In this document: positions 4,192 to 49,100 of the stretch, piece after piece
How the letters are laid out: each line of letters begins with the position of its first letter
Position numbering within the stretch: position 1 is the stretch's first letter
Assembly: GCA_017893485.1 (NCBI GenBank)
Contig: CM030367.1
Span: forward strand, 84,946,853-85,010,852
Origin: Hemerocallis citrina
Taxonomy: Eukaryota; Streptophyta; Magnoliopsida; Asparagales; Asphodelaceae
Length of the DNA stretch: 64,000 bases
Direction: 5' to 3'
The notes under the pieces: model-generated
What the model saw: the letters and a program-made list of their open reading frames with translations, nothing else
Databases searched by the model: none
Told to the model about the DNA's origin: nothing
Made by a program: the position numbers and the translations under genes

Positions 4192-5864
4192 TGAACGCAT
4201 TATTATTCACATTTAGAGGCAATAATCTTAATAAAATTAGACAATTAAAAGCTCTATATGTGGTATTTAACTCTTATTTTCTCTTTTCCATAGGAAACAG
4301 CTCAAGACAGCGAAACGAAGCAAATTCAGGATCTTAAGGATGAACTCAGAAGATTACAGAAGCATCAGTCGACTGGTTCTCCAAAACAGGCGACTGGACA
4401 GAGAACTCAAGCTTACACAGATGTCTCATCACAGTCGACTTACTCTCAAGGACAGTCGACTAATCTGATCAATTATGAAATCTTCAGAAGTCTCGACTCA
4501 GTCGACCGGTTCGAAGACAAGTCGACTGGTCTGCGGCGGAATAAACAGATAAGCTATTCGAAGATTCATCCAAATCTAATTTCAAATCTATTTGAATCCG
4601 GATTTATGCAAATCAAATCTAGAGACTGAGGATTTCCAAGAGCACGTGGTTAACAGATAAGGAAGGGAAGAAGAAACAAGAAAGAAATAAATCATCAAAT
4701 CAATTAAAGAATGACTTCCCTAAAAAAGGGGAAACCCTAATTCATCAGCGGTGCTCTATAAATATCAGAAGAGAGGCATTATTCGGGGGCTTAATCTTTT
4801 CTCAGGGAAGCGACTTAATCACAAGAGTTTCTGCGCACTCAAGTCATCAACAAGGGGCATCATTCTATCAGCATCGAAGAAGGAAAGAAGAGATCCAGTA
4901 TTCGAAGGCAGTCAACTGTGTGACAGCCAGTCGACCTTATTGCCGGAGTTCATTAGTTTATTTCTTCTCCTTTTATTCTTTTATGTTGATCATGTATTCG
5001 AACTTGTTGATTAATAAAACTATTATTATGTGGAACTAAAATTTCATAGTTGGGTAGATTGAAGCCGTAGTTATGTAGTGCTATATTCTTCTGAATTCTT
5101 CTATTTACTTATTGATTGAATCTGATTGAATTGATATAGGTTTGTGATAACCAAACTTGTTCTCGAAGCCTGAGAGCAGTCGACTGAGGTGAGAGCCAGT
5201 CGACTGACAAACAGAGCTTGAGAATATCAAGTTTGTGTTACCATTTATCTGAATCTGTTATATGAGCATATTGAGACGACCCGTATCTCGTGCCCGTAAT
5301 TGTAACAAAGGGATCTTTAGGGGTTCCTGGTTCAATCAACTTAAGGGATCTAGATCTGATACCAATTTCTAGGACCTTGAGTGTTTGTTCGTTTACACTG
5401 ATCTTATGTTTTCTTTAAGCACAACTTAGTAGATACCAAGCTAAACACTTAATGAAAGAAACGAATTAGAGTAGATACCATGCCTAATTCTTGGCCTAGG
5501 AAAACAATACTTTAAGGAGTAGATACCATGCCCTTGAAGTGAACAAACATGAGTAATAAGAAGAAGTTCAGAAGGTGACTTAGCGTTACTGACTATTGGT
5601 GACAATCTAAACCCAACTACTTCATAAATATTTGTGATTCAACACTTCTTAATTCAGTTTTAATCTTTTTATTTCTTTTAGACCTTTAGAACAACTCTTT
5701 ATGATTTTTATTCTTTTTATTGGTTGGTAAGTTAAAGTCTACAATCTCTGTGGGATCGACCCTTGCTATTGCTACGCTTTGTCAAACGATTCGTGCACTT
5801 GCGAGGTTTTTATAATTTGTGTCTAGTTTAGTCTATATATTTAGGTAACTAGATTTGCACAACA
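4189..5864 (+). repeat. 5' LTR of the nested Athila-type element
   Basis: It begins TGATGAACGC and ends GCACAACA, and has the same length as the right copy. It holds eight intact GTCGAC cores (4368, 4434, 4455, 4501, 4521, 4930, 5179, 5199) and degenerate ones (4389, 4911). A probable promoter lies near 4755, where CTCTATAAATATC is a good TATA box. The open frame at 4751-5014 is in this LTR and is not a gene. Confidence 0.95.
4366..4531. repeat. Phased CAGTCGACTGG array in 5' LTR
   Basis: Cores start at 4368, 4389 (GGCGAC variant), 4434, 4455, 4501 and 4521, giving within-pair spacings of 21, 21 and 20 bases. The ten bases between paired cores are not related to each other. The group lies about 225-390 bases upstream of the TATA-like box, where enhancer sites would sit. 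The identical array recurs in the right LTR from 12689. Confidence 0.85.
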
Positions 5865-5870
5865 TATTTT

Positions 5871-5888
5871 TGGCGCCGTTGCCGGGGA
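5871..5888 (+). other. Primer binding site, tRNA-Asp type
   Basis: TGGCGCCGTTGCCGGGGA lies six bases after the left LTR. This is the characteristic primer site of Athila/Tat group elements, complementary to the 3' end of plant tRNA-Asp. Confidence 0.9.
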
Positions 5889-5986
5889 TTGTCTAGTATT
5901 TTAACTTACAGATCAGTAGGAAGTTTTTATTTTCTTTCTTTTAGTTTATTAATAAGTTTTTCTTTTAGGTTACAGGATTTTGGTGG

Positions 5987-7386
5987 ATGCACGGAAGGAG
6001 ATCACTTCGTCCAGAGCTACTACCAATTGACACAGAAACAGAACGCACCTTGCACAGGTTAGGTCGACTGATTGCGACCAACCAGTCGGCTGCTGCACGA
6101 ACCCAGTCGACTGCTCAGAGACCTCAGTCACAAGCAGTCATGGCAGAAGAAATACCCAATCGTGTACCAATGCATGATAAATTTACGCCTAAGAACATTG
6201 AACAACCCTCCTGCATTGCGTATCAACCAAATGTCACAGGGAACATGCATCTATCTCCTCAGTTACTTAGTATGGTTCCCCATTTCAGTGGCAGACCTGA
6301 TGAAGAGCCTCATCTTCATTTACAAGATTTTTTCGATCTCTGCAGGACACAAAGCGTCCAAGGGCTTACCCCTGAACAAATCAGGTTAATATTGTTTCCT
6401 TTTTCCTTAAAACTTAACGCTAAACTATGGTATAATTCTTTGGAACCAGGATCAATAAACTCATGGGAGCAATTGGCGACAAAGTTCTTAAAAGAATTCT
6501 TTCCAGCCCAAAAGACCAAACAGCTGAAAAGGGAGATTCAACTCTTCCAACAAAAGGATGGAGACTTATTTTTCGAAGCATGGAAAGATTTCAAGAACAA
6601 ACTTCTCAAGTGTCCAACACACAACATGCCTAAAGATGATCAGGTACAAGCTTTTTATGAAGGTTTAAATGATACTAATAAGGCAATTGTGGATTCAGCT
6701 TGCAACGGGATCTTGATGAGGAAAAGCGGCGAAGAGGCCATAGAACTATTTGAAGAACTCAGCGAGAATTCACAACAATTCTCAACAAGGAGGGCCCTTC
6801 GAAAAAACAGGGAGTTTATGAAATTTCTAGTAGCAATAACATTCAATTAGAAATGGTAAACATGAATAAGAAAATTGATATGCTTGTTAATGCAATGTCC
6901 ATGATGGGTGGACTTAAAAATCAAACAAATGAAATTTGTGCAATTTGTTCTCATATAGATCATACCACTGATACTTGTCCCATGTCTTCTTTCACAGATC
7001 AGGAGCATGCAAACTATGTAGGTCGAGGAGTTTTTCCACCAAAGAACAACCCATTCTCGAACACATACAACCCAGGGTGGAGGAACCATCCAAACTTCTC
7101 ATGGAGCAATAATCAGAATAATCAAGGGACTCAATTCACACAAGGACATGCACGGAACTTCCAAATGGGAAGTGGGATGGATAGGCCAGTACAAGAACAG
7201 AAGAAGTTGGATTTTGAATCCACCGTTCTTCAATTGCTCCAACAACAACACCAAACAAGCAACCAACAAGGGCAAGCAATTCAGAAGTTGGAAACACAGA
7301 TTGGCCAAATTGCTAAAGAATTAAGCGAGCGAAAGGCAGGGGAACTTCCATCACAAACTATACCAAACCCTGGAGGCCAAGAATAG
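5987..7386 (+). pseudogene. Athila-type gag, frameshifted and stopped
   Basis: The first part (5987-6850, 287 codons) contains the retrotransposon gag core (HFSGRPDEEPHLHLQDF, LKLNAKLWYNSLEPGSINSWEQL, FFPAQKTKQLKREI, CPTHNMPKDDQV). Near 6810 the coding frame shifts by one base: the typical gag continuation (VYEISSSN) is read in a second frame that runs to 7386 through a Cys/His cluster (CAICSHIDHTTDTCP) and a Gln/Asn-rich tail. TAG at 7384 and TAA at 7471 then interrupt the same frame before pol. I infer a single-base indel and two point mutations. The N-terminal 60 codons contain a phased GTCGAC group. Without a working gag this copy could move only if supplied in trans. Confidence 0.9.
6061..6132. 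repeat. Phased GTCGAC group inside gag
   Basis: Cores at 6063, 6085 (GTCGGC), 6106 and 6127 (GTCACA, weak) have steps of 22, 21 and 21 bases. They fall in the poorly conserved N-terminal tail of gag, so the protein reads as a loose Gln-Ser-Ala/Thr repeat. Confidence 0.75.
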
Positions 7387-7479
7387 CTCAAGGCAGTCAC
7401 AACACTAAGAAGTGGTAAGATAATTGATAACAATGTTGGAACACACACCGAAGAAAAAGAAGAACAACCATAAAAAATT

Positions 7480-10400
7480 GTGGGGTCCAACAAGGTAAGT
7501 GAAAAAGAAAGAACAGTTTTGCCACCATTCCCTCAAAGGTTAGTCAAACAAAAGAAAGATCAACATTTATTTGACATCTTTGAAACTCTCAGAAAGGTAG
7601 AAATCAATATCCCCCTACTTGATGCTATTAAACAAATTCCTTCTTATGCTAAATTTTTGAAAGAATGTTGTACTCACAAAAGAACATTTCAGGTTAGGGA
7701 GGATGTGGCCTTGACAGAAGAAGTGAGCGCTGTCTTACTAAGAAAACTGCCCCCCAAATTAAAAGACCCAGGTAGTTTTACTATTCCTTGCAGGATTGGC
7801 GAGCACTTCTTTGAGAAAGCACTACTAGACTTGGGGGCAAGCATCAATCTTCTCCCATACACCATCTATGAGAAGCTAGGATTGGGGGAACTCCAACCAA
7901 CATCCATCACGTTGCAGTTGGCAGATCGCAGTATCAAAAGACCTAGAGGTATTTTGGAAGATGTCCTAGTTCAGGTAAACGATTTCATTTTGCCTGCTGA
8001 TTTTGTTGTGTTAGACATGGAGGAATCTTCAATGCCATCATCTCTACCAATCATTCTAGGTAGACCCTTTATGAGTACGGCTGATATAAAAATTTGTGTC
8101 AAAAAGGGTACCATAAGCATGAAAATAAATGGAGAGAAGGTTGAATTTAAAATGTTTGATACACTGAAATTTCCACTTGATGATCATGAATGCTATAATG
8201 TTGATGTGGTGCAGGATATTGTTGATCACACATTTCAGGTACATAGCGTAGAACCACTACAAGCCACAATTACACAGTCTCTAACTTTATCTAATGTTGA
8301 ACAGGAATATGATGACTGGGAGATTGCAGAGACAATACATCACCTTGACACTTCACAGTCATACTCAGGTAAGTTTGCACCAGCATTTGAACCATTGGTG
8401 ACTGATGAACTTTTTGTTTCTGCAGATAAGTCGACTGGTGCACTGGACAAGTCGACTGCCGCAGAGGATCAGTCGACTGTCCAGACTGTAACGAGGGACC
8501 AGTCGACTGTACCAAGACTTACAAACCCAGAGCTTAAGCAGCTGCCCGACCATTTGAAGCACGCATATTTGGGCGAGAACCAGACGCTACCAGTGATAAT
8601 TGCTGCGAACCTGAGTACACAGGAAGAAGACAAGCTACTACGGGTGTTACGAGAACACAAGAGTGCAATAGGATGGACCATTGCAGATATCAAGGGAATA
8701 AGTCCATCCAAATGCATGCACAGAATACTCCATGAAAACAATGCAAAACCAAGCAGGGAGGCACAGAGAAGGCTTAACCCAAACATGAAGGAAGTGGTAA
8801 GAGCAGAAATTCTGAAGCTACTAGATGTTGGCATCATCTACCCTATCTCAGATAGCAAATGGGTAAGTCCTATACATGTAGTGCCTAAGAAAAGTGGAGT
8901 CACAGTGGTGACAAATGAAGAAAATGAACTTATCCCTACTAGAGTGACCACAGGATGGAGGGTATGCATTGATTATAGGAAACTGAACAATGAAACCAGG
9001 AAAGATCACTTCCCTCTTCCTTTTATTGATCAAATGTTAGAAAGATTAGCAGGATATAGTCATTATTGTTTTTTAGATGGTTATAGTGGCTATAATCAAA
9101 TTGCTATTGCCCCAGAAGATCAAGAAAAAACCACTTTTACATGTCCTTTTGGTACTTTTGCATACATGAGGATGCCCTTTGGATTGTGCAATGCACCAGC
9201 TACATTTCAAAGATGCATGATGAGTATATTTTCAAACATGGTGGAAAGGTTCATTGAGGTATTTATGGATGATTTTAGTGTTTTTGGATCTTGTTTTGAT
9301 GAATGCCTTAACCATTTGCAGCTTGTGCTTAAAAGATGTGAAGAATGCAATTTAGTGCTGAATTGGGGAAAATGCCATTTTATGGTACAACAAGGTATTG
9401 TGTTGGGACACGTGGTGTCCAAAAGGGGAATAGAGGTAGACAAAGCAAAAATCGATATAGTATCAAAACTACCCCCTCCCACTACAGTTAAGGGTGTTAG
9501 GAGTTTTCTAGGACATGCAGGGTTTTATAGAAGATTCATAAAAGATTTCTCAAAAATCTCCAAACCCCTTTGTGACTTGTTGGCTAAGGATGTTGAGTTT
9601 GTATGGACAGAAGAGTGCACAAATGCTTTTGTTACATTAAAAAATCTTCTCATTTCTGCACCTATTGTCATGGCACCAGATTGGAGCCATCCTTTCGAGA
9701 TCATGTATGATGCAAGTGATTATGCTTTAGGGGCTGTTTTAGGTCAACGAATCAATAAGAAACCTCATGTTATCTACTATGCTTCTCGAACTTTAAATGA
9801 TGCACAGCTAAATTATTCCACTACTGAAAAAGAAATGTTGGCTGTTATTTTTGCTATAGAGAAGTTTAGATCATATTTGATTGGTTCAAAAGTTATTGTT
9901 TTCACTGACCATGCTGCTTTGAGATATTTGTTTGCTAAAAAGGAGGCTAAGCCTAGGCTGATCAGATGGGTGTTATTGCTTCAAGAATTCGATCTTGAGA
10001 TTAGAGATAAAAAAGGGAGCGACAACGTTGTTGCAGATCACATGTCCAGGCTACTGCAGGAGGAAGAGAGAATTGTGCCGCCACTTGATGAGACTTTCCC
10101 AGATGAACATTTCTTTGAAATAAACTTATCCTCGGGACAGTCGACTGGTACCAGGACCAGTCGACTGGTATCTTACTGCTCAAATTTTTCATGGTTTGCT
10201 GACATTGTAAATTATCTAACCGCTCATGTTTTCCCTCCAGGTATGACAAGTCAGGAAAGAAAGAGACTGGTGGCTCTGTGCAAGCACTACTATTGGGATG
10301 ATCCTTATTTGTTCAAATTTTGCCCTGATCAAATTATAAGAAGATGTGTGGCAGAAGAAGAGCAATTGAGTATTCTACAACATTGCCACCAATATGCATG

Positions 10401-11487
10401 CGGAGGACATTTTGGACCAAAAAGAACAGCACTTAAGGTACTGCAATCTGGATTTTATTGGCCTAAAGTATTCAAAGATGCTTTTTCTTTTTGCAGGACT
10501 TGTGACAAATGCCAAAGGACAGGCAACATCTCTTCTAGAAATCAAATGCCACTGCAAAACATCCAAGTGATCGAGCTTTTTGACGTTTGGGGAATCGACT
10601 TCATGGGTCCATTTCCTAACTCATTTGGTTATTTATATATACTTGTTGGTGTGGATTATGTGTCTAAATGGGTCGAGGCTGTCCCCTCACGAACTAATGA
10701 TCACAAAGTTGTTGTCAAGTTTTTGCAGGAAAACATCTTCACTAGGTTTGGTACACCACGAGCAATAATAAGTGATGGAGGGAGCCACTTCAATAACTTT
10801 CCTTTTGCTTCTTTGATGAAGAAGTATGGTATTACACATAGAGTGGGCACCCCATATCATCCTCAAACTAGTGGGCAAGTGGAGATTAGCAACAGAGAAA
10901 TCAAAAGCATTTTGGAAAAGACAGTCAACACAAGGAGGAAGGATTGGTCGTTGCACTTGAACGATGCATTATGGGCCTATAGAACCGCATACAAAACACC
11001 CATTGGCATGTCACCATACCGTTTGGTGTTTGGAAAAGCCTGTCATTTGCCAGTTGAGTTGGAGCACAAAGCATATTGGGCCATCAAAAGGTTCAATTTT
11101 GATATGAAACAAGCAGGCGACAAAAGACGATTACAACTAAATGAGCTTGAAGAGTTGAGGCATGACGCTTATGAAAATGCAAAATTGTACAAGGAAAGGA
11201 CAAAGTTGTACCATGACAAACAGCTAGCAAGGAAGGAGTTTTATGAAGGACAGAAGGTACTGATATACAATTCAAGATTGAGACTTTTTCCAGGCAAACT
11301 TATGTCAAGATGGTATGGGCCATACACTGTCACAAGAGTCTTTCCACATGGCGCTTTGGAGGTTCATAGCAAGGAAAAGAACCAAACATTTAAGGTGAAC
11401 GGGCATAGAGTGAAGCCATACATAGAGACGAGCATAGGACCGCAAGAGGAGGATGTGAATCTTCAAACCGTTCACTACATGGCATGA
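7480..11487 (+). CDS. Athila-type pol polyprotein (protease, RT, RNase H, integrase), open
   Basis: An uninterrupted frame of 1,335 codons. Protease active site DLGAS lies at residues 117-121. RT contains the [13 protein letters not shown] block near 565 and the catalytic FMDD at 595-598. RNase H begins near 740 ([14 protein letters not shown], then STTEKEML and FTDHAAL). Integrase has its zinc-binding HHCC region near 965-1015 (CRTCDKCQ), the core Asp in GIDFMGP, the second in ISDGGSHF, and Glu in QVEISNREI. The Met at 7480 is only the first Met after an in-frame TAA at 7471; the native product would be a gag-pol polyprotein. Between protease and RT (residues 318-345) a low-complexity linker repeats KST/QST every seven residues because of phased GTCGAC sites. 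No chromodomain is seen. Catalytic residues look intact. Confidence 0.93.
8428..8512. repeat. Phased GTCGAC array in the pol linker
   Basis: Cores start at 8430, 8451, 8472 and 8502, with steps of 21, 21 and 30 bases, all multiples of three. The encoded peptide repeats KST/QST at seven-residue steps and lies between protease and RT, where little conservation is expected. Confidence 0.9.
10138..10170. repeat. GTCGAC pair between RNase H and integrase
   Basis: Cores at 10140 and 10160 sit 20 bases apart, each in a CAGTCGACTGGTA context. The pair falls in the spacer between the RNase H and integrase domains, again a region of low protein constraint. Because 20 is not a multiple of three, the two copies are read in different frames (QSTG, then TSRLV). 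Confidence 0.85.
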
Positions 11488-12509
11488 CCTCATCACGTCT
11501 AGCTGAAGACAGAAAACACAGCGCTTATTGGGAGGCAACCCAATTTTTCAGGGAGTATTTACACTTTCCTTTGTTTTCTTTCAGTTATTTATTATTATCC
11601 TTATTTTAGTTATTTTTATTTTTAGTTTCTCCTTACTAGATGGTGACACATGCCTATTTTTAAATTTTCTTTCGAACATTGAGGACAATGTTCCATCTAA
11701 GTTTGGGGGTATTAGGGTTAGTTATATTTATCATCTTTTTGAATTTTTTAGGATAAACAATTTCTTATAAAGTAAGAGTAAGTATACTTATTTACTTTAG
11801 GATTGTTGCGTTTCATAATTCCCTAAAAGATTATATGAGTCATGCAATTATACATAATAAACAAATGTGATGCTTTCTTCCTGGTGATCATTCCCTTTAA
11901 ATCTAGTCCTAAATTGAGTTTAAGTAAATAGAGTGATAAAAAAAATATATATATATATAACTATATACTTGAATAAAGTCAATCTACTCCAATGTTTTGA
12001 GTGCTTAGTAACTAGGGGTATTCATCACCAATGTTTACCTTTACGTCAAACGGCAACTTGAAATATGAGTATGCAAAGCACCCTAGAGTTTGTGACTTGC
12101 TGAGTAACCGGGTGGATTCATCACAAATGTTTCGCATTCGCGTAAAAAAGGCAAGTGACAACTTTAGAGAAGCGACTAAAAAAAAAAAAAAAAAAAAAAA
12201 AAAAACAAACTCTAGTTTGCTACTCGGTTTGTAGTAGAGAAAAGGGAATAATCACAGATTGAGTAATTACATACTATAACTATAATTAATTGCATGACGA
12301 GTATGGTTGAGTTTGGAGTTATGAATAAACAATTGCACTAGAGAAAGTGGGTATGTTTAACTTTACTTTATCTGAAATTGTTTATACTTTTCTATGTTGA
12401 TGCCCACATAGTAAGAACTCTTGGTGATTAAGGCTGTTATTATTATCATACCCTTGTTCATAATTCTAGTTTGCTTGAGGACAAGCAAAAATCTAAGTTT
12501 GGGGGTATT
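11488..12509 (+). other. Athila-type 3' untranslated region, no env-like ORF
   Basis: After pol come GCGCTTATTGGGAGGCAACC (11522-11541) and a polypurine-like tract, both common in Athila/Tat elements. A roughly 95-base unit around AGTAAC...GGATTCATCAC is present twice (near 12008 and 12103) in diverged form, followed by a run of about 26 A at 12179-12204. The region is too short and too broken to hold the env-like gene seen in some Athila elements. Open frames at 11528 and 12031 lack any motif. Confidence 0.7.
12493..12509 (+). other. Polypurine tract before the 3' LTR
   Basis: CTAAGTTTGGGGGTATT ends exactly where the right LTR begins (TGATGAACGC). The same 17 bases occur at 11697-11713, so the element has a second, internal copy. 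Confidence 0.8.
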
Positions 12510-14185
12510 TGATGAACGCATTATTATTCACATTTAGAGGCAATAATCTTAATGAAATTAGACAATTAAAAGCTCTATATGTGGTATTTAACTCTTATTT
12601 TCTCTTTTCCATAGGAAACAGCTCAAGACAGCGAAACGAAGAAAATTCAGGATCTTAAGGATGAACTCAGAAGATTACAGAAGCATCAGTCGACTGGTTC
12701 TCCAAAACAGGCGACTGGACAGAGAACTCAAGCTTACACAGATGTCTCATCACAGTCGACTTACTCTCAAGGACAGTCGACTAATCTGATCAATTATGAA
12801 ATCTTCAGAAGTCTCGACTCAGTCGACCGGTTCGAAGACAAGTCGACTGGTCTGCGGCGGAGTAAACAGATAAGCTATTCGAAGATTCATCCAAATCTAA
12901 TTTCAAATCTATTTGAATCCGGATTTATGCAAATCAAATCTAGAGACTGAGGATTTCCAAGAGCACGTGGTTAACAGATAAGGAAGGGAAGAAGAAACAA
13001 GAAAGAAATAAATCATCAAATCAATTAAAGAATGACTTCCCTAAAAAAGGGGAAACCCTAATTCATCAGCGGTGCTCTATAAATATCAGAAGAGAGGCAT
13101 TATTCGGGGGCTTAATCTTTTCTCAGGGAAGCGACTTAATCACAAGAGTTTCTGCGCACTCAAGTCATCAACAAGGGGCATCATTCTATCAGCATCGAAG
13201 AAGGAAAGAAGAGATCCAGTATTCGAAGACAGTCGACTGTGTGACAGCCAGTCGACCTTATTGCCGGAGTTCATTAGTTTATTTCTTCTCCTTTTATTCT
13301 TTTATGTTGATCATGTATTCGAACTTGTTGATTAATAAAACTATTATTATGTGGAACTAAAATTTCATAGTTGGGTAGATTGAAGCCGTAGTTATGTAGT
13401 GCTATATTCTTCTGAATTCTTCTATTTACTTATTGATTGAATCTGATTGAATTGATATAGGTTTGTGATAACCAAACTTGTTCTCGATGCCTGAGAGCAG
13501 TCGACTGAGGTGAGAGCCAGTCGACTGACAAACAGAGCTTGAGAATATCAAGTTTGTGTTACCATTTATCTGAATCTGTTATATGAACATATTGAGACGA
13601 CCCGTATCTCGTGCCCGTAATTGTAACAAAGGGATCTTTAGGGGTTCCTGGTTCAATCAACTTAAGGGATCTAGATCTGATACCAATTTCTAGGACCTTG
13701 AGTGTTTGTTCGTTTTCACTGATCTTATGTTTTCTTTAAGCACAACTTAGTAGATACCATGCTAAACACTTAATGAAAGAAACGAATTAGAGTAGATACC
13801 ATGCCTAATTCTTGGCCTAGGGAAACAATACTTTAAGGAGTAGATACCATGCCCTTGAAGTGAACAAACATGAGTAATAAGAAGAAGTTCAGAAGGTGAC
13901 TTAGCGTTACTGACTATTGGTGACAATCTAAACCTAACTACTTCATAAATATTTGTGATTCAACACTTCTTAATTCAGTTTTAATCTTTTTATTTCTTTT
14001 AGACCTTTAGAACAACTCTTTATGATTTTTATTCTTTTTATTGGTTGGTAAGTTAAAGTCTACAATCTCTGTGGGATCGACCCTTGCTATTGCTACGCTT
14101 TGTCAAACGATTCGTGCACTTGCGAGGTTTTTATAATTTGTGTCTAGTTTAGTCTATATATTTAGGTAACTAGATTTGCACAACA
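12510..14185 (+). repeat. 3' LTR of the nested Athila-type element
   Basis: The same length as the left LTR, with a constant offset of 8,321 bases. By eye I count about 11 substitutions and no indels. One difference restores a GTCGAC core at 13232 that is GTCAAC in the left LTR, so this copy has nine intact cores (12689, 12755, 12776, 12822, 12842, 13232, 13251, 13500, 13520). The open frame at 13072-13335 is LTR sequence, not a gene. Confidence 0.95.
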
Positions 14186-14190
14186 AATAC

Positions 14191-15075
14191 CTTCATCAGC
14201 AGTTCCGTATGAAAGACCTTGGCAGACTACGATATTTTCTGGGCCTAGAGATTGCTCATGGATCTCGGGGGATACTCATTTCTTAACAGAAATACACATC
14301 AGATATTATCTCCGCTGCATGCCTTTCTGACAGTAGATCAGCCGATACACCCTTAGAGCTTCATGTGAAGCTTCGTCCCACTGATGGTGAGCTCCTTCCT
14401 GATCCTACTAGATACAGACAGATTGTTGGACAGCTTGTCTACTTATGCATGACCAGACCCGATATTGTTCACGCAGTCAGTATTGTCAGTCAGTTTGTTT
14501 CTGCTCCTACATCAGTTCACTACGGTGCTCTTCTTCGGATTCTCTGATATCTTCGGGGCACTATTACTCGCTCATTATTCATGCCTGCTACATCCAAATT
14601 AGAGCTGAGTGCATATTCTGATTCAGATTGGGCAGGTGATCCTACTACCAGACGGTCTACCACCGGTTTCTGTCTATTTCTTGGTGATTCGCTGATCTCA
14701 TGGCGAAGTAAGAAACAGGTAGTTGTTGCATATTCTTCGACTGAAGCTGAGTACAGAGCAATGGCAGCTACTACTGGAGACATTGTTCATGTTCGTTGGC
14801 TGTTATCAGATATGAGTGTCACTCTTACAGGAGCTACTCCTCTTCATTGTGATAACCAGAGTGCATTGCACATTGCAAGCAACCCGGTCTTTCATGAGCG
14901 AACGAAGCATATAGAGATTGATTGCCATTATGTTTGTGAGCGCTTTGAGGCAGGGACCATTTCTCTCCATTTTGTTACATCTTCCCAGCAGACTGCAGAC
15001 TTCTTCACCAAATTCCATACTGTTCAGAGATTTAGATACTTAGTAGGCAAACTCACACTGTTTGATCCATCATGA
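14191..15075 (+). pseudogene. Copia RT C-terminus and RNase H (continuation of the split gene)
   Basis: After the nested element, translation resumes with [18 protein letters not shown], the end of the copia RT domain. It continues through RYRQIVGQLVYLCMTRPDIVHAVS and the RNase H block SAYSDSDWAGDPTTRRSTTGFCLFLGDSLISW, STEAEYRAMA, HCDNQSALHIASNPVFHERTKHIEIDCHYV and TADFFTK. A stop interrupts near 14284 and another at 14545-14547. It ends just before the right LTR, as expected for the end of a copia polyprotein. Confidence 0.92.
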
Positions 15076-15088
15076 GTTTGAGTGGGAG

Positions 15089-15230
15089 TGTTAGATATTA
15101 TCATAGTCCCATATTGGTTGTAGAGTTGTTTTGATATTTGTTCCCCTCCTATATATATGTGGTATTGTACTTGGTTGAACTTAATTCAATATTCAGTAAT
15201 GTTTTCACATCTCTCTGATTTATCTTAACA
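15089..15230 (+). repeat. 3' LTR of the outer copia element (142 bp)
   Basis: It begins TGTTAGATATT and ends CTTAACA. A purine tract (TTTGAGTGGGAG) lies immediately upstream as the plus-strand primer. It contains a TATA-like CCTATATATATG and could in principle start transcription toward Fd-GOGAT, since it is in the same orientation and about 600 bp away. Confidence 0.93.
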
Positions 15231-37100: not shown

Positions 37101-40100
37101 AAATGTGTGACGAAAGTGTATTTGAGTTCTTAATGTGTGAACGTACATTAGTTATTTATGTTTACATATGTTTCTTTAGTGCATGTGGTTGTACGTGAAT
37201 GTTTGTACATTTGGTTTGTTAATCTATAATTTGTATTAGATGAAACAAAGAATGACAATTAATAATATAATATTCAGGAGTTAAAATTTTATGCGGCATG
37301 TCACTATAATATTTGAAATGTTCCTGATGTGTCCCCAAGACTTGTCAACTAACAGTTAGGACACAATGTTGGCGTCCACCATTTAGAACGTTCTGTATAG
37401 GATTGATTCTTTGGAATTTTATAGTATGATGTGCAATATAAAATACCAATGCGACAAAATTTAATGTTTATCCACTTTATAAGTTTTGCAGAACTTATTT
37501 TCAGTATTGGAATTAATACGCGATTCTGGAATTGGGCAATTAATTCTTATAAGGTCTAAGCAAAAAAAAATCTGTTTTTCTGTACATGTATGTGGATTTG
37601 TGTTGGTGGGAATGTTTGTGGCTCAAGTGAAATATGTTGCCTTAATGAAGGGAGTCTTATCTCTACCATTTGCTGTAAATCTTAAGTGATATATACCAAT
37701 ATCGTAGCCTATTTTTCTTGTTTCTTTTCCGTAGATTGAATTCAGTTTGATAGTTAATATGGTCTTTATATTAATATTTTTGCTATTATGCTGGTATTTT
37801 GATAAATGCTATATCCAAATTAAGAGTGAGACTTATTAGATATTTTGACATATACTTGCCGCCCTTGTTGATTCCATATACATCATTCTGATTAAAGAAA
37901 GTTTGCTTTCGATTCATATAATCCTTATAACAGATATACACAGACATCTATACACATAAACACATATAACATACATATGTTTATATGCACACCTACATAT
38001 ACATTCGTGAATTTGTGTTTGTGTCTTATTAGAGGCTTGTCATTATATGTAGGAAAGAAAGTAAGTTTAGCAGATGTTATTTCTTGTATTTGCTTTGAGA
38101 TTTGTGAAAGGCGTGTTAACTTTTCCAAGCGCATTGAACGCTCTGAAAAATTAAGTATGTCAAATTGCATTCGAATCTCAAAGACCATCCAATCGCCTTC
38201 AAAGTGTTCAATTTACTATTAAAATTTAATTTCACACTATTAGCTTATGACAGTTAACTAATTCATTACTTACTACTAATTCTCTGTTCTATTAGTGATG
38301 GGAAAACAGTAGGAGCTTGTCTCGATAGAAATGGTCTTCGTCCTGCTCGGTATTGGCGAACTGTGGATGATATGGTCTATGTTGCATCGGAGGTAATATT
38401 TGTTCTTTAGATACTCAAAAGGTTCCTCTTCTTGCAACATTTTAATTTGTCCGTAAATGTTAAATTTGCATCATAAATTTTGTTAGTTTGTTAAAGAAAT
38501 TTCAAATCTAATGCGGAATTCTTAATGCTGCGTTGACCATATAGAGAGTACAGTAGACCAGATAACCAGATAATTTTCCAAATTGGAGAAGCATGAAAGT
38601 TGTGATAATAGTTTGGTATACTTAAAGTTGAGATAATAGTTTTGTATACATAGTGTATCACCTCCTGAATTTAAAAGATGAAGTTTTAGCTGACAACATT
38701 GACAAGAAAGAGCAAATGAAGACACAGCTGCTAGTTTTTCGACAACAACAACAACAACAAAGCCTTTTTCCCAACTAGTTGGGGTCGGCTAGTTACTAGT
38801 TGCTATTTTTTCCCTCCACATTATTCTAGATTTGCTGGATCAACTAGTATTTCAAAGGCATTGGGTGTTTCAACTCCTCGTATGGAGTGTTTCTTAAAGA
38901 TTTCTTTGAACCTCCTCCTCAAATAGCCTTGGAACATTTTCCCGCTGAAATTATTACATGCTTCTGTTTGATTGGCATGGATCTTGGAACACAATTATGA
39001 GCTAGAGGAAGACAGTGCAGGTGACTTAAAAGATAGCAAAATCTAGACCAACCTTTGACAAATGCTGCATGTTCTTTAATTTTTTTGCTTCCTATTTGGA
39101 CAATTATCTGTGTAAACTGGCAAACATACTTATTTTAATCTACCATTATTGGTTTGAGATTCTTGACATACAACAACCAATTTTTTGTTGTTGTACACAG
39201 GTTGGTGTTGTACCAATGGATGAGTCAAAGGTCATAATGAAAGGCCGATTAGGCCCAGGCATGATGATAACAGCTGATCTACTGAATGGACAGGTCTATG
39301 CTTAGTTTTTAGTGTTTTCTTTTAGTTGTACTTCATTTTAATTCTTGCATTGTTATCTTGTGGTAATATACTCAATTAACTTATTAGCTTTTAATTTTGA
39401 TGGTTTATTTGCTCTTCTTTTTAATATTTCAGAAGTTCTCTGGGTTGCATTGTGATTACTGAGTTCTGTAGTGATTATAGTTAGGGAATTTTGAACCTAT
39501 AAATTGTTCTTGCATACAGGAGTGTTCTGTTAAGTGATGTGTACTTGATCTTCTGTTCCAGTTTAAAATTATGTAGCTTTTGCACTTTTGCGGAAGTCAC
39601 AACGTCACATGACAATTAAATACTGGAGCAGCCAATATATACAATTAAATGTACTTATCCAATATGTTATATAACATGTCATTATCGTAGTATGTAAAAC
39701 TTGCACTCCACCTTGTATGGTGATAGGAAATTACAGCCACATATTTGGATAGAATAGAAGGTAACCTGAGTAGAGACAAAGGCATCATGTTCTCAGTATC
39801 CTGACATGCTTCATGTTATGTAACATGTGTTGGATCCTGTAGGCAAGGCAAGAAACAGATGTATCCTGCCCGACCTACATCCAGTCCCCATGCAACCCAC
39901 TTGAGAATTTCCACTATTCTTGAAAAAATTACAAGAATACCCTACGGCGTTAGACAACAACCTTGTCCAACCCGGAGTCCTTTCTCACAACTAGAGAAAG
40001 CAACCCACTCTTCCACCAAGAGTGAAAACCTGACTCTACACCTTAGAGCCCTACTCTCCAACCGAGAGGAACCACTCTCACAACCCGAGAGTGAAGAACA

Positions 40101-43100
40101 ACAACAAAATGTTACAATCAACCTATAGCCTTGTTGTGAATGTGATTTTATGCGTGGCTATTAGGTCAACTTCCGAAATCAGTCTAAAACGAAATCACTG
40201 TTATGCTAGACTGATTTCAGAGAACCAAGACTTAGAAAGTGAATGCTTTTGAATGCTTTTTCTGGTTAGATCCAAAAGCTTGAGAACTTGAGAAACAAAA
40301 AGCTTGGAAAATAAGTTGTTAGCCTTTTCCAAGTGATTTCTACACTCTATTTATAGAGTTGGAATCACTGAACGTTAAGAAGCAGTTGTACCAACTGTCA
40401 ACCAACGGAATTAAAACTTTTGAATTCGAAAAAATCAAGTTTTGAAATCAGTAAACTGTCGAAACGACTTGAACAGTCGACTGGGTTGCCGTTATGAGTC
40501 GACTGGTCAGAGTTTGAATAAGTTCAGTTAGTTTCGTACTAGAACAGTCGATTGGTGCCTTATGGTGGTCGACTGGTACTTAACAGCGGAGCTTTTTCAA
40601 TCTAGTTTCGATCTTTTTAAGTGAAAAATACTCAATTATTTTAAAGATAATATGTGAGTGTGTGTGACAAGGCTTTTACAGAATTTCTAAGACTCAAAGA
40701 AAATAAAAAAGTTACAATTGTTACAAGACACTTAATACAATAAATTAAAGCATAGGTCTTGTCTTGAGTCTTGAGTCTTGAGATGGAGCTTTTAGCCTTC
40801 GTCATTTTCTTGTAAGCTGGCAACCTTGTAGCTTTCTTTATCAATTAGCTATAAGAGCTTTGTTTGTAGCTTTGCTTGATCAACTTGCTTTAAGAACCTT
40901 GTAAAGCTTGTTAGAACATTTTGCCTTTGTATATCCTATAATATGTAAGAAGTAGAACTTTGCATTGTGTTGTAATCATCAAAATCAAGAATCAACATTC
41001 TCCCCTTTTTTGATGATAACAACACAATAGCTTAAAATAAAGGGAATAAATATTACAAGTGCTCACATGCTCCCCCTATCAAATGTACAACATGCATAGG
41101 TGTGAAAGCATGCATAAGTGAAAAACATGTACAAAGATATGTATCACCACAACATAACACACAAAGCAATATACAAATTGGAGCTTATATTTTCTCCCCC
41201 TTTGTCATCAACAAAAATGGGAAAAATAACCCTCACAAAAAATAATATAGACAAAATGTCATTCATATTAGAAAAAATAAGTCTTAGTTCAAACAATTAC
41301 ATAATAGATAGAAAATGCAACAATAAGTAGGAAAATACATAGAAAAAAATATAAAAATAGTAACTCATCAATCTTCATCATCTTCATCTTGGTCATCATG
41401 AGAGGAAGGAGGAAATTGAGTGGTGAATAGGTGGGTAAGATGAGAAATATGTGACTCAAGAACATCTTGACGATCCATGATATAATTGACAGCATGATAA
41501 ATACTGCGAGGATCATCACAATCTGCTCGAGGACGAGAGGAACTAGAAGCAGAAGACCGACGAGCTGAAGTAGCTAAAGGAACAGGAGGGGAAGTCCTAG
41601 AAGTAGACCTAGGTGGAGAAGAAAAAAGTTTCATGCGTGCTAAACTTGCACGATCAAAAGACTCATAGTGCTTTACTACATTGGTCTCTGCATCGAGATC
41701 GACATCATAAGCACAAAAAACTCGAGTAAGAAGGGCACCAAAAGGAAGAAATGAAGTATGAACCTTATGAAGCCCAGAAAAAACGATACGACCCCAATTT
41801 AGATTAATTTTGCCGAATATTGCATAAACGGCTTGTAATTCCATGGAATACTGAACATAACTCCCTGTTTTGGGAATGATATTGTATGATAGTATTTGTG
41901 CAACAAGTTTTGCAACAGGGGTAATGGACCTATTTGACATAGGGGGTCCATGATTTGGCAAATAGATTCTAGATAAAGTGGTGGCATCATCCATCTCAAT
42001 TTCTCCTAAGTCAAGCCCTTCATCATCTAAACCCAAAATAAGGTTGATTCTTTCGGAGGTGAGTTTCGTCTTATTTTTGACAGAGGTATAGATGAAAATC
42101 TCACTACCACATCCGATTGGACAACCTTCATATTTGTATAAAACAAATAGATGAGTTGAGGGTAGTAGTAGAGTTGATTTTCTAAAGACAAAAACTCATA
42201 AAGACCACAATGTTGAAACAAAGACATGAGATTAAACCTATCAAGATCGAAAAAATTTACAAACCGACCCGAAAAAATCATAATGGAACATATTATGTAC
42301 CATTTTTCAACAAGGTTGAGACTTCTAAGATATTGAATATAGTCCCTAGAAGATGAACCCTCATCTACATGAGATGTTTTTGATCTTTTAGGAGCCATAA
42401 AGTGAAATCCTAAAAGAGATGGAAAAAAGTTCTAATAAGGTATACCGATAAGGAAGTAGCAAAGAGTAAAGAACTTCAATAGATTTTCAATCTGGATTTC
42501 AAATCCTTGAAATCCCCAAGCAGCAGTAGCAGCCGACTTGAACTTTGGTAGAGAGATGGAGTTAGGGTAAAAGTGAAAGAATGAGGGGAAAGAGTTAGGG
42601 TTTTTACTTTGAATGGATGATTGAGATGAAGGTAGGGAGTTTCAAAGGTTCAGATCGGTCAAAGGGTAAAAAAAATTGCCTCAAACGATGTGCCAAAATT
42701 CGATTTTGAAGAAAATCTGAGTCGCGACAGTCGACTAGTATTAGGAGGCAATCGACTTAGTCGAGAGTCAAAATAGAAAATTGAACGTAATATTAGTACC
42801 ACTGGTCAGTTGACTGGGTACTATGCACAGTCGACCGTCCAGAGCATAAAACTCAGACAAAATTTAGAAAAAGAAACTTGATAGCCGATCGAACAATATT
42901 TGTAAGTCGACTTACCAGAAAGAAAAAAATTCAAGAAACATCATGAAAACTACAAATCCCTAGTTCTCTTCTTAAGGTTATAAAGGTGTCTTCTTTAAGG
43001 AGTTTGGTAAAAATGTCAGCTACTTGTTTATCAGTAGAAATAAAGTCTAAAGAAAGAAATGTCTCCCTTTAAAACATGATCACGTAAAAAATGATGTCGA

Positions 43101-46100
43101 ATATCAATATGTTTCGTACGTGAGTGTTAAACCGGATTTTTAGATAAGTTAATGACACTGGTATTATCACACGTTATTGAAGGTTTTTCAAATGAAATAC
43201 CATAGTCTAATAGGGTTTGTTTCATCCACAAAATTTGGGCACAAGCCAAACTTGCAGCGATATATTCAGCTTCTGTAGTAGATAGGGATACTGAATTTTG
43301 CTTCTTACTGCACCAAGAGACTAGTGAATGTCCCAAATAGTGACATGTCCCACTTGTGCTCTTGCGGTCAGTTTTACTACCAGCAAAATCCGCATCACTA
43401 TATGACAAAAGTTGAAAATTATCGGTGCGTGGATAAAATAGACCATAATCAGACGTGTCTTTAATATATCTTAAAATGCGTTTCATAGCTTTTAAGTGAC
43501 TCTTTAGGACTTGACTGATATCTAGCACAGCACACAAACATACACTAAATATAATGTCCGGTCTACTAGCAGTTATATATAAGAGTGAGCCAATCATACC
43601 TCGATAGAGTTTCTGATCGACAGTCTTACCTAATTCATCTTTGTCAAGGGTAGTGGTAGTAGCCATAGGTGTGGTCTTACTACTAGTGCTATCCATGTTA
43701 AACCGTTTGAGTAATTCCTTGGCATATTTTCCTTGATTAATGAATATACCATTATGTGACTACTTAATTTGTAGTCCAAGGAAATAATTGATTTCACCCA
43801 TGTGACTCATCTCAAACTCGTTTTTCCATGGTGTTAGCAAACTCTTGACATAGATTACTATCAGTAGAACCGAAAATTATGTCATCAACATATATTTGTA
43901 TGATTAAAATATCATTCTTAATTCTTCTAATAAACAAAGTAGTATCTACTTTACCTATTTCAAAACCTGTTTCTAAAAGAAAAGTCTTCAATCGACTATA
44001 CCAAGCACGAGGTGCTTGTTTAAGACCGTATAAAGCCTTTTTCAATTTAAAAACGTGGTTTGGGAATTGTTCATGTTCAAAACCTGGTGGTTGTTTAACA
44101 TAAACATCTTCCTTTATAAACCCATTAAGGAATGCACTTTTAACATCCATTTGAAAAAGTGTAAAATTCATAAAACAAGTAAAAGATAATAAGATACAAA
44201 TTGATTCTAATCTAGCAACAGGAGCACATGTTTCATCAAAATCTATGCCTTCTTGATTATATCCTTGAGCAACTAGTCTAGCTTTGTTCCTAACAACTTG
44301 TCCTGATTCATCTAACTTATTCTTGAATACCCATTTAGTACCAATTATAGTATGATCAGGAGGTCGTGGAACTAAATCCCATACATCATTCCTTATGAAT
44401 TGGTTTAACTCATCTTGCATGGCATTCATCCAAAATTCATTCTCACACGCTTCTTGTATATTCTTCGGTTCAAAATCCGACAAGAAAGCTGTGTGATCTA
44501 TCATGTTAACATGTGATCTCGTCTGAATACCATGTGAATTGTCACCAATTATTAAGTCATGAGGATGATCTCTAATTTCAACAAAAGACTTTGGTAAAGT
44601 TGGAGACATCACAACAGGATCAGTCAACTTGACAAGTCCCTCAGTCGACTGATTTACAATAGTCAACTTGACTTCCTTATCGGTCGACTTATCCGCAAGA
44701 CTAGTTTGTTCTAAAGATGTAATTACTTTATTTAAGGGTGATGAATTAGTTCCATCATCTTCAATTAAGGTCGATGAAAACAAAGATTCATCAAATGCAA
44801 CATGCATGGATTCTTCAATAGTCATTGTTGACTTGTTGAAGATTCTATATGCTTTACTTCTATTTGAGTATCCTACAAAGATTCCCTCATTAGATCTAGG
44901 ATCAAATTTATCTAATTATCTTATTGTTCAGAATAAAACACTTACATCCAAATATTTTGAAGTAAGAGACCTTAGGAATTCTTTCAAAAAATAGCTCATA
45001 ACATGTTTTCTTTAGCTTAGGCCTAATCAAAATTCTATTTAAAACATAACAAGCTGTAGCAACAACTTCAGCCCAAAAATACTTAGGTAAATTGCTTTCA
45101 ACAAGCATGGTACGTGCACATTCTTGCAAAGTCCTATTCTTCCTTTTAACCACTCCATTTTGTGGTGAAGCTCTAGGAAATGCAAATGAATGAGATACCA
45201 TTCTTGTTGCAATATTCTGCAAATGTTTTATTTTCAAATTCTCCACCATGATCACTTCTAATAGTGACTATGGTTAGAGACTTTTAATTTTGAATTCGTT
45301 TACAAAAATTAGCAAATTCTTCAAAAGCATCATTCTTATGTTTTAAAAATAAAGTCCAAGTGAATCGTAAAAAATCGTCTACTAAAACAAAGACATACCT
45401 ACTTTTATTTAAAGAAGCAATTCTAGTAGGACCAAATAAATCTATGTGAATTAATTCGAGCGGCCTACTAGTAGAAATTACTTCTTTTGTTTTAAAAGTA
45501 GATTTAATTTGTTTACCTAGTTGACATACATCACATAACTTATCCTTTTTAAAGGATAGTCTTGGCGGCCCTTTAACTAGGTTGTACTTAGACAATTTGG
45601 AGAGATTTTTCATATTCACATGGCCAAAACATCTATGCCAAAGCCAAGAATCGTTATTAGAAGCTACTAAGCAAAAATCATTCGAAAACTCATATTCTTT
45701 CAATCACAATTCATAAATGTTATTTTTCCTAAACCCTTGAAAAATTATATTTTGCATGGTAGAATCATAAATTAAACATGTGTCTTTTTCAAACATGATT
45801 TTATAACCCTTATCACAAAGTTGACTAATACTTAACAGGTTATGCTTAAGTTCACTAACTAATAAGACATCTTCTATAGAGGGGTTAGTGTGCTTACCGA
45901 CCATACCAATTTTTATGACCTTTCCTTTATTGTTGTCACCAAATGTAACTGTTCCTCCATCAATGTTTTGTATGAAAGATAGGAGGTTGGCATGACCAGT
46001 CCTGTGCTTCGAGCATCTGCTGTCAAGTATCCAACGATCTCTCTTAGGTACCTATAAAATATTCAATGTGAATATGGTACCCTCTTCATTGGGTCCAAAA

Positions 46101-49100
46101 AGATTAGTTTGTGGGAAACCAAACCCATGATGAGTTTGATTTTCCACCATAAGCAGAAATGAAATTAGCAGAATTACATACATTAAGCATATATGAATTA
46201 ATATAAGTAATTCTATCTTTCGAACTCAGGTTGACTGGAACCCATACATATTTGTTCTGTCCAGTCGACTTTACCGCACCTTTCAGTCGACTTTTACTAT
46301 CAATCAGTCGACTTGGAGGTAGTATATGTCGACTTATCTGAGGTATTTGTCTCGTTGAATGAGACTCAGTACCTCTGGACAGGCGACTGGTGGATGAGTG
46401 CAGTCGACTTGGCTGAATTTTAAATTTGCCTTTATCATGAAAACTTACAGTTTTAGGCTTTTCAAAGAACTCATAAAGTTTATGCTTAACACTAGAAATA
46501 GATACAAGTTTATTTACACTAGTGTTCTTAGAAGAATGAGATTTGTCAAGCAACTTTTTAAAACCAAGTCCAAACTTTTGACTAGATTTCACTTGATTTT
46601 GAAAAACATCATTTAAATTCTCATTTCCTTTATTAAATTTAGATACGTTCTTGGATATCTCTTCATAATTTTTCTTTAGAAACTCAAGATCCGTATCTAA
46701 ACTAGAAAAACGAGAATTTAAGGATTTTACTTCTTTATCAAGGTTAAGATTCTCTTGAGAAAGTGTTTGATTAACTTTCTCTAAGTTCTTAACTCTAATC
46801 TTTTCTTTTTTAAGTTCTTGAAAAATTTCATTAAAAGCATTAAGTAATTCATTAGAATCATACTCACTACTTGATTTTGTGACGCCATAAAATACACGTT
46901 TGCAACCTCGTTTGTCTCATCAATTTCTTTTTCCGACGAAGAATCGCTGTCATCCCAAGTTGCTTGGTATGCCTTTTTGTTCTTCACGAACTTGTTCTTT
47001 GTGTACTTATCTTTTTGAAGTTTGATGTCTTTCCCTTAGATTTTGCGTTCTCTAGTGGGCAATCCTTCTTCATATGGCCTGTCTTGTTACACCTGAAACA
47101 AGTTGGAGGTTCATTAGATTTCTTAGATTTTGAATTAAACTTATCTTTTCTTAGGAACTTTTTGAACTTTCTCGTGAACATGGCAATCTCTTCCTTATCT
47201 TCTTCTTCATCCTCGGAGTCCGACATGGCTTTAAATGCTAATGTCTTCTTCTTTGATTGTTGTGGTTTGACATCCTTCTTGCGCTATTTAAGTTGTACAT
47301 CATAAGCCATAAGATTTCCCACAAGATTCTCAAGAGGAAGTTGTGTTAAATCATTGGCCTCTTCTATGGCGGTGGTCGTCTTCTCCCATTCGGGGGTTAG
47401 TGCACGAAGTACCTTTCTCACCATCTCGGCTTGAGTGTATGTCTTTCCAAGTGCCATAAGTGAATTTGTAATGTCTGTGAACCTTGTAATCATCTCGGAC
47501 ACATTCTCATTTTCCTTCATGCGGAACATTTCAAACCTGTGAACAAGAACAGATATTTTAGATTCTTTTACTTTGTTTGTTCCTTCATGAGTTACCTCGA
47601 GTGTGTGCCAAATTTGATGTGCGGTTGTTGCATTGGACACACGGTTGAACTCCTCCTTTGTAAGGGCACAAAATAGCGTGTTCATCGCCTTTGCATTGTT
47701 CATTGTTTGGTTCTTCATGTCGTCGTTCCATTGTGCATCTGGAATGGTAGGAGCGGTGTACTCGGTCTCCGTCATGTTCCATATTTCATAGTTGATGGAC
47801 TGAAGGTAGATCTTTATTCTACACTTCCAATAGTTGTAATTGGTTCCATCGAAGAGGGGTGACCTTTGTGTAGATTGGCCTTCATGGTATTGATTTGCAT
47901 TAGAAGTAGTTGCCATTGCACTCAATCAGGCTCTGATACCAAGTGTTGGATCCTGTAGGCAAGGCAAGAAACAGATGTATCCTAGTTTGGTCCTCCCGAC
48001 CTACATCCAGTCCCAAGCAACCCACTTGAGATTTTTCACTATTCTTGAAAAAATTACAAGAATACCCTACGGCGTTAGACAACAACCTTGTCCAAGCCGT
48101 AGTCCTCTCACAACTAGAGAAAGCAACCCACTCTTCCACCAAGAGTGAAAACCTGACTCTACACCCTAGAGTCCTACTCTCCAACCGAGAGGAACCACTC
48201 TCACAACCCAAGAGTGAAGAACAACAACAAAATGTTACAATCAACCTATAACCGTGTTATGAATGTGATTTTATGCGTGGCTATTAGGTTAACTTCCGAA
48301 ATCAATCTAAAATGAAATCACTGTTATGCTAGACTGATTTCGAGAACCAAGACTTAGAAAGTAAATGCTTTTGAATGCTTTTTCTTGTTAGAACCAAAAG
48401 CTTGAGAACTTGAGAAACAAAAGGCTTGGAAAATAAGTTGTTAACCTTTTCCAAGTGATTTCTACACTCTATTTATACAGTTGGAATCACTGGACGTTGA
48501 GAAGCAATTGTACCAACTGTCAACCAACGGAATTAAAACTTCTGAATTCAAAAAAATCAAGTTTTGAAATCAGTAAACTGTCGAAATGACTTGAACAGTC
48601 GACTGGGTTGCCGTTGTGAGTCGACAGGTCAGAGTTTGAATAAGTTCAGTTAGTTTCGTACTAGAACAGTCGACTGGTGCCTTATGGCGGTTGACTGGTA
48701 CTTAACAGCTGAGCTTTTTCAATCTAGTTTCGATCTTTTTAAGTGAAAAACACTCAATTATTTTAAAGATAATGTGTGAGTGTGTGTGACAAGGCTTTTA
48801 CAGAATTTCTAAGACTCAAAGAAAATAAAAAGTTACAATTGTTACAAGACACTTAATACAATAAATTGAAGTATAGGTCTTGTCTTGAGTCTTGAGTCTT
48901 GAGATGGAGCTTTTAGCCTTCGTCATTTTCTTGTAAGCTGGCAACCTTGTAGCTTTCTTGATCAGTTAGCAATAAGAGCTTTGTTTGTAGCTTTGCTTGA
49001 TCAACTTGCTTTATGAACCTTGTAAAGCTTGTTAGAACATTTTGCCTTTGTATATCCTGTAATATGTAAGAAGTAGAACAACAACTTTGCATTGTGTTGT

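Follow-up and report, generated by a model that had tools for sequence, protein, structure and literature searches.

A palindrome shared by unrelated retrotransposons

We analyzed a 64,000-nucleotide stretch of the Hemerocallis citrina genome (contig CM030367.1 of assembly GCA_017893485.1; hereafter the window) and found that two unrelated long terminal repeat (LTR) retrotransposons within it, an Athila-type gypsy element and a Sirevirus-type copia element, are densely marked with the same ten-base palindrome, CAGTCGACTG. In both elements, and in a chromodomain-containing gypsy element from the same genome, the repeating unit is a doublet, with a few triplets, whose sites lie 20-21 bp apart centre to centre (range 19-22). 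The sites are enriched, their sequence is conserved above the level of the flanks, and the spacers between them are unrelated. From these features of the sequence we predict that the arrays are paired binding sites for one trans-acting, most likely host-encoded, DNA-binding factor used by three lineages, a reading to which we give a probability of roughly 0.68. The two window elements were delimited as follows:

4189..14185, plus strand: Athila-type Ty3/gypsy element (LTRs, ends, target-site duplication, domain order)
39828..49124, minus strand: Sirevirus-type Ty1/copia element (LTRs, primer binding site, polypurine tract, target-site duplication, domains)

The hexamer GTCGAC occurs 44 times in the window, with 25 copies in the gypsy element, 16 in the copia element and three elsewhere (21271, 26661 and 54989), a recount that reproduces the tally of the original prediction made for this stretch (about 25, 16 and three). 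Sites matching CAGTCGACTG, which is also the consensus of the sites, with up to one mismatch number 26 in the gypsy element, 14 in the copia element and none in the remaining window; with up to two mismatches the numbers are 30, 25 and 7. Counting one LTR per element, both elements have 20 sites with up to two mismatches, against means of 1.98 (gypsy) and 1.87 (copia) in 500 dinucleotide shuffles of each element (maxima 8 and 7); for up to one mismatch the counts are 17 and 12, against means of 0.11 and 0.12 (maxima 2 and 2). Among all 1024 ten-base palindromes CAGTCGACTG ranks first in each of the two elements, and it is outside the top five in all seven other parts of the window that were scanned. 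Three of the two-mismatch sites are probably chance matches: 43989 lies inside the reverse transcriptase (RT) match, 10047 lies just past the RNase H match in what we take to be a conserved motif, and 40449 has a 5′ LTR copy (48571) that is not retained in a relative. Sites 10047 and 43989 were left out of the base-pair and flank complementarity counts and kept in the enrichment, spacing, spacer and reading-frame counts.

Doublet spacing and spacers

Neighboring sites in the window are separated by 25 steps of up to 60 bp, of which 18 measure 19-22 bp and 11 exactly 21 bp; the near-constant 21-bp step that had been predicted is thus real. Taking both window elements together with four elements or element parts from the genome sample described below, 76 of the 85 sites are grouped as doublets or short runs, with steps of 19 bp (2), 20 bp (14), 21 bp (20) and 22 bp (4). 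Distances from doublet to doublet vary (56-96 bp, n = 17) and are not clearly in helical phase (Rayleigh p 0.06-0.07). The proposal that all sites face one side of the DNA therefore holds within a doublet but not clearly between doublets.

Pooled spacers (n = 18) have a mean identity of 0.28 when left justified and 0.26 when right justified. Since this is the level of the null (0.27, standard deviation 0.014-0.016), the arrays have no common 21-bp unit. The spacers had been described as unrelated, with homology among them named as the mark of a plain 21-bp minisatellite. Overall they are indeed non-homologous, with the qualification that the gypsy spacers alone (n = 10) are somewhat alike (0.32/0.37); the copia spacers (n = 8), at 0.22/0.25, are not.

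A genome sample and a third lineage

We scanned 29 further stretches of the same genome, taken at round coordinates and comprising 279,500 known bases (279.5 kb); 22 come from one 471-Mb contig and seven from three other contigs. Two additional stretches, L032 and L033, were taken to extend L019 and stand outside the sample counts. The 29 stretches contain 42 sites with up to one mismatch, the expectation from base composition being about 4.9 for the first 28. Within those 28, 116 sites with up to two mismatches form 2, 11, 9 and 1 pairs at 19, 20, 21 and 22 bp, respectively; every other distance up to 120 bp has five pairs at most. Only two of the 1024 palindromes, both of AT-microsatellite type, beat CAGTCGACTG (15) in pairs at 19-22 bp. 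The original prediction had staked itself on an excess of sites and a sharp spacing peak in the source genome, and the sample contains both, with the peak at 19-22 bp.

Doublets with at least one site at up to one mismatch occur in four of the 29 stretches. Two of them, L026 and L028, represent diverged Athila LTRs with 76-81% identity to the LTR of the window gypsy element. L034 is a Sirevirus relative of the window copia element (80.5% identical over gag and 71-72% over the LTR) with a C-rich LTR end. L019 contains a gypsy element with a chromodomain, whose LTRs, in L033 and L019, are 94.6% identical; each LTR bears five doublets about 80 bp apart, lying within degenerate tandem repeats of about 80 bp. 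The pol of this element is 28% identical to that of the window gypsy element. This chromovirus is a third motif-bearing lineage and the second within gypsy.

Looser palindromes resembling CGGTCGACCG, several of them followed by CA and mostly without the 20-21 bp step, are present in L027 (2487-2668, 8443-8561) and L031 (2173-2225, 6699-6837). L027, which also contains a copia RT, has one 19-bp pair of two-mismatch sites (2487/2506), its other steps being for example 12, 33 and 41 bp; the steps in L031 are 12, 43, 51 and 56 bp. These variants are possibly a second version of the same code, near the box reported for a grapevine Sirevirus. Both stretches fall outside the four of 29 given above, which requires a site with up to one mismatch, and inside the pair counts of the 28 stretches.

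Conservation between relatives

Between relatives the motif is 88-95% identical and the 25-bp flanks 61-81%, the motif being higher in all seven comparisons. In the Athila U3 (unique 3′) region, 56 of 59 motif positions and 95 of 142 flank positions are identical; in the gag region of the copia element and L034 (46262..46410), the corresponding fractions are 47/50 and 93/134. The other comparisons gave, for motif and flanks respectively, 53/59 and 104/149, 55/60 and 113/140, 19/20 and 47/60, 35/40 and 72/119, and 43/49 and 81/124. One-sided p values range from 6e-6 to 0.08, six of the seven being below 0.05, for comparisons that share sequences and are not all independent. Copia spacers have diverged between relatives (19/34 and 11/22) while the motifs were kept (47/50 and 43/49).

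Retention can also be followed array by array. The three U3 doublets of the gypsy LTR (4366..4528) are retained in L026 and L028, as is the doublet in the 3′ half of the LTR (5177..5206), whose step is 21 bp there. The motifs of the doublet 3′ of the TATA box (4909..4937) are retained in L028 with an identical 19-bp step. The LTR doublets of the copia element (40474..40575) are retained in L034. Near its C-rich end the L034 LTR has three extra doublets (2224-2385), at a place where its alignment to the window copia element breaks, and because of this the arrays seem to be gained and lost as blocks.

Origin of the arrays

With the motifs masked, none of 15 comparisons among six arrays stands out after allowing for 15 tests. 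Four of them were equalled by three or four of 100 plain shuffles, two of these being comparisons within one lineage. The lowest values were 3 of 100 with plain shuffles and, for chromovirus against copia LTR, 8 of 500 with dinucleotide shuffles. The chromovirus-copia pairs (8 and 32 of 500 dinucleotide shuffles) lie at the low end of chance, which leaves a weak relationship between these two kinds of array conceivable. The masked gypsy LTR array has no homology to those of the other lineages, 294-466 of 500 shuffles doing as well. We read the lack of convincing homology between the arrays of different lineages as convergence: the lineages, it seems, converged on one trans-acting factor and built their arrays independently. 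Sharing between superfamilies had been attributed either to dependence on the same factor or to capture of an array by one element from the other. Motif conservation between relatives, together with the third lineage, strengthens the former, and the 15 masked comparisons give the latter no support.

Positions of the sites within the elements

The arrays of the gypsy element, all recorded without strand, are:

4366..4528: three U3 doublets (steps 21, 21 and 20), 230-390 bp upstream of the TATA box at 4757; copy at 12687-12849
4909..4937: doublet (19 bp), 3′ of the TATA box; 3′ LTR copy at 13230-13258
5177..5206: doublet (20 bp) in the 3′ half of the LTR; 3′ LTR copy at 13498-13527
6061..6113: triplet (22, 21) in the N-terminal part of gag, ahead of the gag domain, in two reading frames
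8428..8509: four sites (21, 21, 30) in pol, within the linker that joins protease and RT
10138..10167: doublet (20 bp) in the RNase H-integrase linker, its members in different frames (QST, SRL)

The arrays of the copia element, likewise without strand, and the open reading frame (ORF) beside one of them are:

40474..40575: two doublets in the 3′ LTR, upstream of the TATA box; 5′ LTR copy at 48596-48697
42530..42913: six sites (two doublets and two singles) between pol and the 3′ ORF, the position upstream of ENV
41371..42195 (also given to 42431), minus strand: 3′ ORF at the ENV position, with a weak PF20167 match and an apparently interrupted frame
44621..44690: doublet and single site in the integrase-RT linker
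46262..46410: triplet (22, 21), three-mismatch site at 46326 and doublet; coding, after the coiled-coil part of gag, in two frames

Nineteen sites are coding, 11 in the frame that reads QST/KST where intact and 8 in an SRL-type frame. Of these, 18 fall outside the Pfam domain matches. Inside gag-pol of the Athila and Sirevirus elements, the sites sit in stretches that tolerate change. The use of two frames and the position outside domains argue that DNA or RNA sequence was kept, not peptide.

Repeated-motif clusters of Sireviruses are described as bordering CpG islands. The ratio of observed to expected CpG, computed in 300-bp bins, is 0.91-1.26 over the LTR and ENV-upstream arrays of the copia element and 0.00-0.95 in its other bins; the two coding arrays stand at 0.60 and 0.79. 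The motif cluster at 42530..42913 stands just upstream of the 3′ ORF. This ORF matches PF20167 (Transposase_32, "putative plant transposon protein") with E 1.4e-6 and 28.7 bits, under the curated cut-off of 45. Its matches to PDB sequences were at chance level only (E at least 0.12), and a structure prediction from the single sequence (mean pLDDT, predicted local distance difference test, 34.8) was not used.

Identity of the elements and their surroundings

The gypsy element has LTRs at 4189-5864 and 12510-14185 that are 99.3% identical, with the 5-bp target-site duplication AATAC on both sides. Its primer binding site is TGGCGCCGTTGCCGGGG, which we take to be typical of Athila; the lineage label depends on that assumption. 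Domains follow the Ty3/gypsy order, gag and then protease, RT, RNase H and integrase, and the scan gave no Chromo match, so that the primer binding site, the domain order and the lack of a chromodomain agree with Athila membership. Among the stop-to-stop ORFs of at least 80 aa in its internal part, gag and pol aside, none of 14 had a Pfam match. The element interrupts an older copia element (514-15230) whose 142-bp end pieces are 94% alike. The older element has a CAGTCGTCG-rich short tandem repeat at 812-887 and is not enriched in the motif.

The LTRs of the Sirevirus-type element (39828-40997 and 47937-49124) are 94.6% identical, and its 5-bp target duplication, read in the sense direction, is CATGT. 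Domain matches include gag, integrase, SH3 and RT. The Sirevirus primer binding site TATCAGAGC is present as CA-CTTGG-TATCAGAGC, one intervening base differing from CA/ATTGG. The polypurine tract AGGGGGAG occurs exactly at 41201 and 41077, and the terminal tract AAGGGGAG at 41007 is flanked by an inverted repeat read by eye, ATCATCAAAA before the tract and TTTTGATGAT within the LTR. The primer binding site, the repeated tracts and the inverted repeat are listed as Sirevirus signatures in PMC2829016. As to the polyC-rich integrase signal of Sirevirus LTR ends, a C-run is seen in L034 and is absent from the last 90 bases of the window LTR. Gag is split across ORFs in the window element, with gag_2, zf-CCHC and weak coiled-coil-type matches; in L034 one ORF of 624 aa has gag_2 and zf-CCHC followed by weak coiled-coil-type matches. 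This is the large gag of a Sirevirus, with a zinc knuckle and a downstream coiled coil.

Elsewhere in the window, an ORF at 18739-19323 with a class-II glutamine amidotransferase domain is likely part of a host gene. Exactly 500 N at 58493-58992, a probable assembly gap, stand just ahead of a gypsy element with a chromodomain match.

Relation to known systems

Bousios et al. 2010 described palindromic repeated motifs (RM) in 13 Sireviruses, located in the LTR and, where ENV is present, upstream of it; in the available parts of that report the authors propose a regulatory role and find no common known binder (PMC2829016). The window copia element has the same layout, one set of arrays lying upstream of the TATA box in the LTR and another upstream of the place of ENV. 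Its 20 sites fit the published definition of a palindromic motif in at least eight copies. The grapevine Sirevirus RM is given in the same parts as CGGTCGACCG, which differs from CAGTCGACTG at two symmetrical bases. The published RM core is CGG-CCG, although the Tnd-1 box as printed there lacks it, whereas the core here is CAG-CTG (PMC2829016). In the sections available, RM boxes are called Sirevirus-specific within the copia set examined and no doublet spacing is seen for them, whereas the motif here has fixed 20-21 bp doublets, lies also within gag and pol, and is shared with Athila-type and chromodomain gypsy elements (PMC2829016). The copia part of our finding is a new sequence member of the published Sirevirus RM boxes; the openly licensed literature searched gave no report of a motif common to three lineages, of a fixed doublet or of sites inside gag-pol.

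Palindromes also cluster in the LTR regulatory region of maize Sireviruses, as described in passages of two reports (PMC5311732, PMC10760457). There the sequence differs (CACCGGACNNNGTCCGGTG), the palindromes are studied as small-RNA hotspots, and these passages show no doublet spacing. For elements annotated as Helitrons, one such palindrome is likewise given as the most frequent motif of their structured regions (PMC10760457). The VANC proteins of Arabidopsis VANDAL transposons, to which the original prediction had drawn a parallel, likewise act on a short dense motif gained and lost between relatives, judging from the accessible parts of PMC5735166 and PMC10398659. There the VANC21 motif, YAGTATTAY, is non-palindromic, mainly non-coding, often in tandem repeats and rare in other transposable elements, whereas the motif here is palindromic. 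The VANC binder is encoded by the element, whereas no VANC-type gene was present among the ORFs scanned in our elements. The parallel is a likeness in layout only.

Searches of openly licensed literature, at the level of titles and the starts of abstracts, found no report of CAGTCGACTG or AGTCGACT in plant retrotransposons, and openly licensed papers on VANC, on Sirevirus or Athila palindromes and on binding sites shared across lineages were not found to report the motif. A search of viral contigs found neither relatives of the gypsy pol piece nor any exact 21-bp doublet. A two-site pattern search of bacteria and archaea returned nine stretches from bacterial contigs (L001-L009) with CAGTCGACTG doublets at 20-22 bp; Pengzhenrongella and one Myxococcales metagenome-assembled genome have CAGTCGACTG arrays with like spacers. 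The bacterial doublets are probably unrelated to the plant element.

Discussion

The palindromic form of CAGTCGACTG suggests binding by a protein dimer, and palindromes 20-21 bp apart suggest that two dimers of one sequence-specific protein would be neighbors on one face of the helix, separated by two helical turns. Athila-type gypsy, Sirevirus copia and chromodomain gypsy would each have built LTR doublets independently, the Athila and Sirevirus elements also within gag-pol, and the factor would be used for transcription or for keeping element chromatin open. Sharing by three lineages favors a host factor over an element-encoded one. We infer protein binding, the pairing of dimers, host encoding and an activating or anti-silencing effect from the form and distribution of the sites. 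With sites also 3′ of the TATA box and within gag-pol, something beyond an upstream enhancer seems to be involved, and hence anti-silencing or chromatin opening is a bolder reading: one host protein may serve as the common key of unrelated LTR lineages, coating the element lengthwise and holding off silencing as a host-factor version of the VANC system. We put this forward tentatively, as the less likely course.

Several observations weigh against paired sites for a common factor. Significance was missed in one of the seven conservation tests (p = 0.08), and the doublet at 4909..4937 is not recognisable in L026. In the chromovirus LTR the first TATA-like site (5639) precedes the five doublets by about 870-1220 bp, a poor fit to an upstream enhancer. 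Between the two LTRs of one chromovirus copy the motif is more divergent (91/100 identical) than the rest (2781/2915), suggesting that sites decay after insertion; such decay would be expected if CpG-containing sites decay in a silenced copy, and function would then act on the lineage and not on the dead copy. Finally, the U3 and internal sites can all be transcribed, which leaves some room for a role in RNA.

A VANC-like system in the stricter sense, in which one family makes a transposon-encoded protein (the Sirevirus 3′ ORF or an unsampled element being possible sources) that attaches to the arrays and lifts silencing, with other families exploiting it by bearing its motif, would fit arrays that span the whole element including gag-pol and not the promoter only. 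It would also fit the block differences between relatives (three doublets at 2224-2376 of L034), as VANC target repeats are gained and lost, and the ~80-bp degenerate tandem repeats that hold the chromovirus doublets; VANC21 targets, in the part of PMC5735166 available, carry multiple motifs at high density. We nevertheless consider such a system unlikely, since neither DUF1985 nor DUF287 was matched among the scanned ORFs (internal ORFs of at least 80 aa in both window elements and ORFs of sampled elements), the 14 further internal ORFs of the gypsy element gave no Pfam match at all, and VANC proteins are reported to act on different spectra of elements, whereas the motif here is common to unrelated lineages. 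If the sites instead acted in RNA, paired palindromes would form transcript hairpins (stem 10, loop 9-12) for packaging, dimerisation or small-RNA production. Any two copies of a palindrome can pair, and 15 folded arrays gave z values of -0.4 to -5.5, four at or below -3.6, a result partly built in because shuffles destroy palindromes. In the 10 gypsy doublets, complementarity of the inner flanks (about 0.43 over four positions) exceeds that of controls, and maize small RNAs are reported to map to palindrome-rich Sirevirus LTR regions in the parts available of PMC5311732 and PMC10760457. Yet copia inner flanks are less complementary (about 0.13), the partner-site flanks of all 18 doublets stand at 0.29 (inner) and 0.26 (outer) against 0.28 and 0.29 in controls, and triplets exist. 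Among the 32 deviating between-site base pairs of these doublets, none is Watson-Crick, and admitting wobble brings the number that pair to seven. Where relatives share a deviation, for example a G at base four of site 4387, the partner site has no compensating change. An RNA-level role is accordingly improbable.

Tandem duplication or capture, in the form of a 21-bp minisatellite or of one array spread between elements, draws on a 21-bp array that Tandem Repeats Finder reports at 8428-8479 (2.5 copies, 80% matches), on the ~80-bp repeat of the chromovirus, on the likeness among gypsy spacers and on the masked chromovirus-copia comparisons at the low end of chance. Pooled spacers are nevertheless unrelated, the masked gypsy LTR array matches no other lineage, and copia spacers diverge between relatives while motifs stay, so that we hold duplication or capture to be very improbable. 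For the Athila and Sirevirus arrays, spacers, conservation and masked comparisons largely refute it. Least credible is selection for a repeated peptide such as QST/KST in the polyprotein: 11 of the 19 coding sites do read this way where intact, but the other eight have the SRL-type frame, the two members of doublet 10138/10158 differ in frame, and neither the LTR doublets nor the ones upstream of the 3′ ORF fall within gag or pol. Site positions and the two reading frames refute this explanation.

A conserved doublet of fixed spacing, shared by three lineages of two superfamilies in one genome, is a precise probe for finding its binder. Once identified, that binder would show genomic parasites converging on one factor. 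The doublet also allows a direct question to be put: is sequence-specific anti-silencing, known from VANDAL DNA transposons, also used by LTR retrotransposons?

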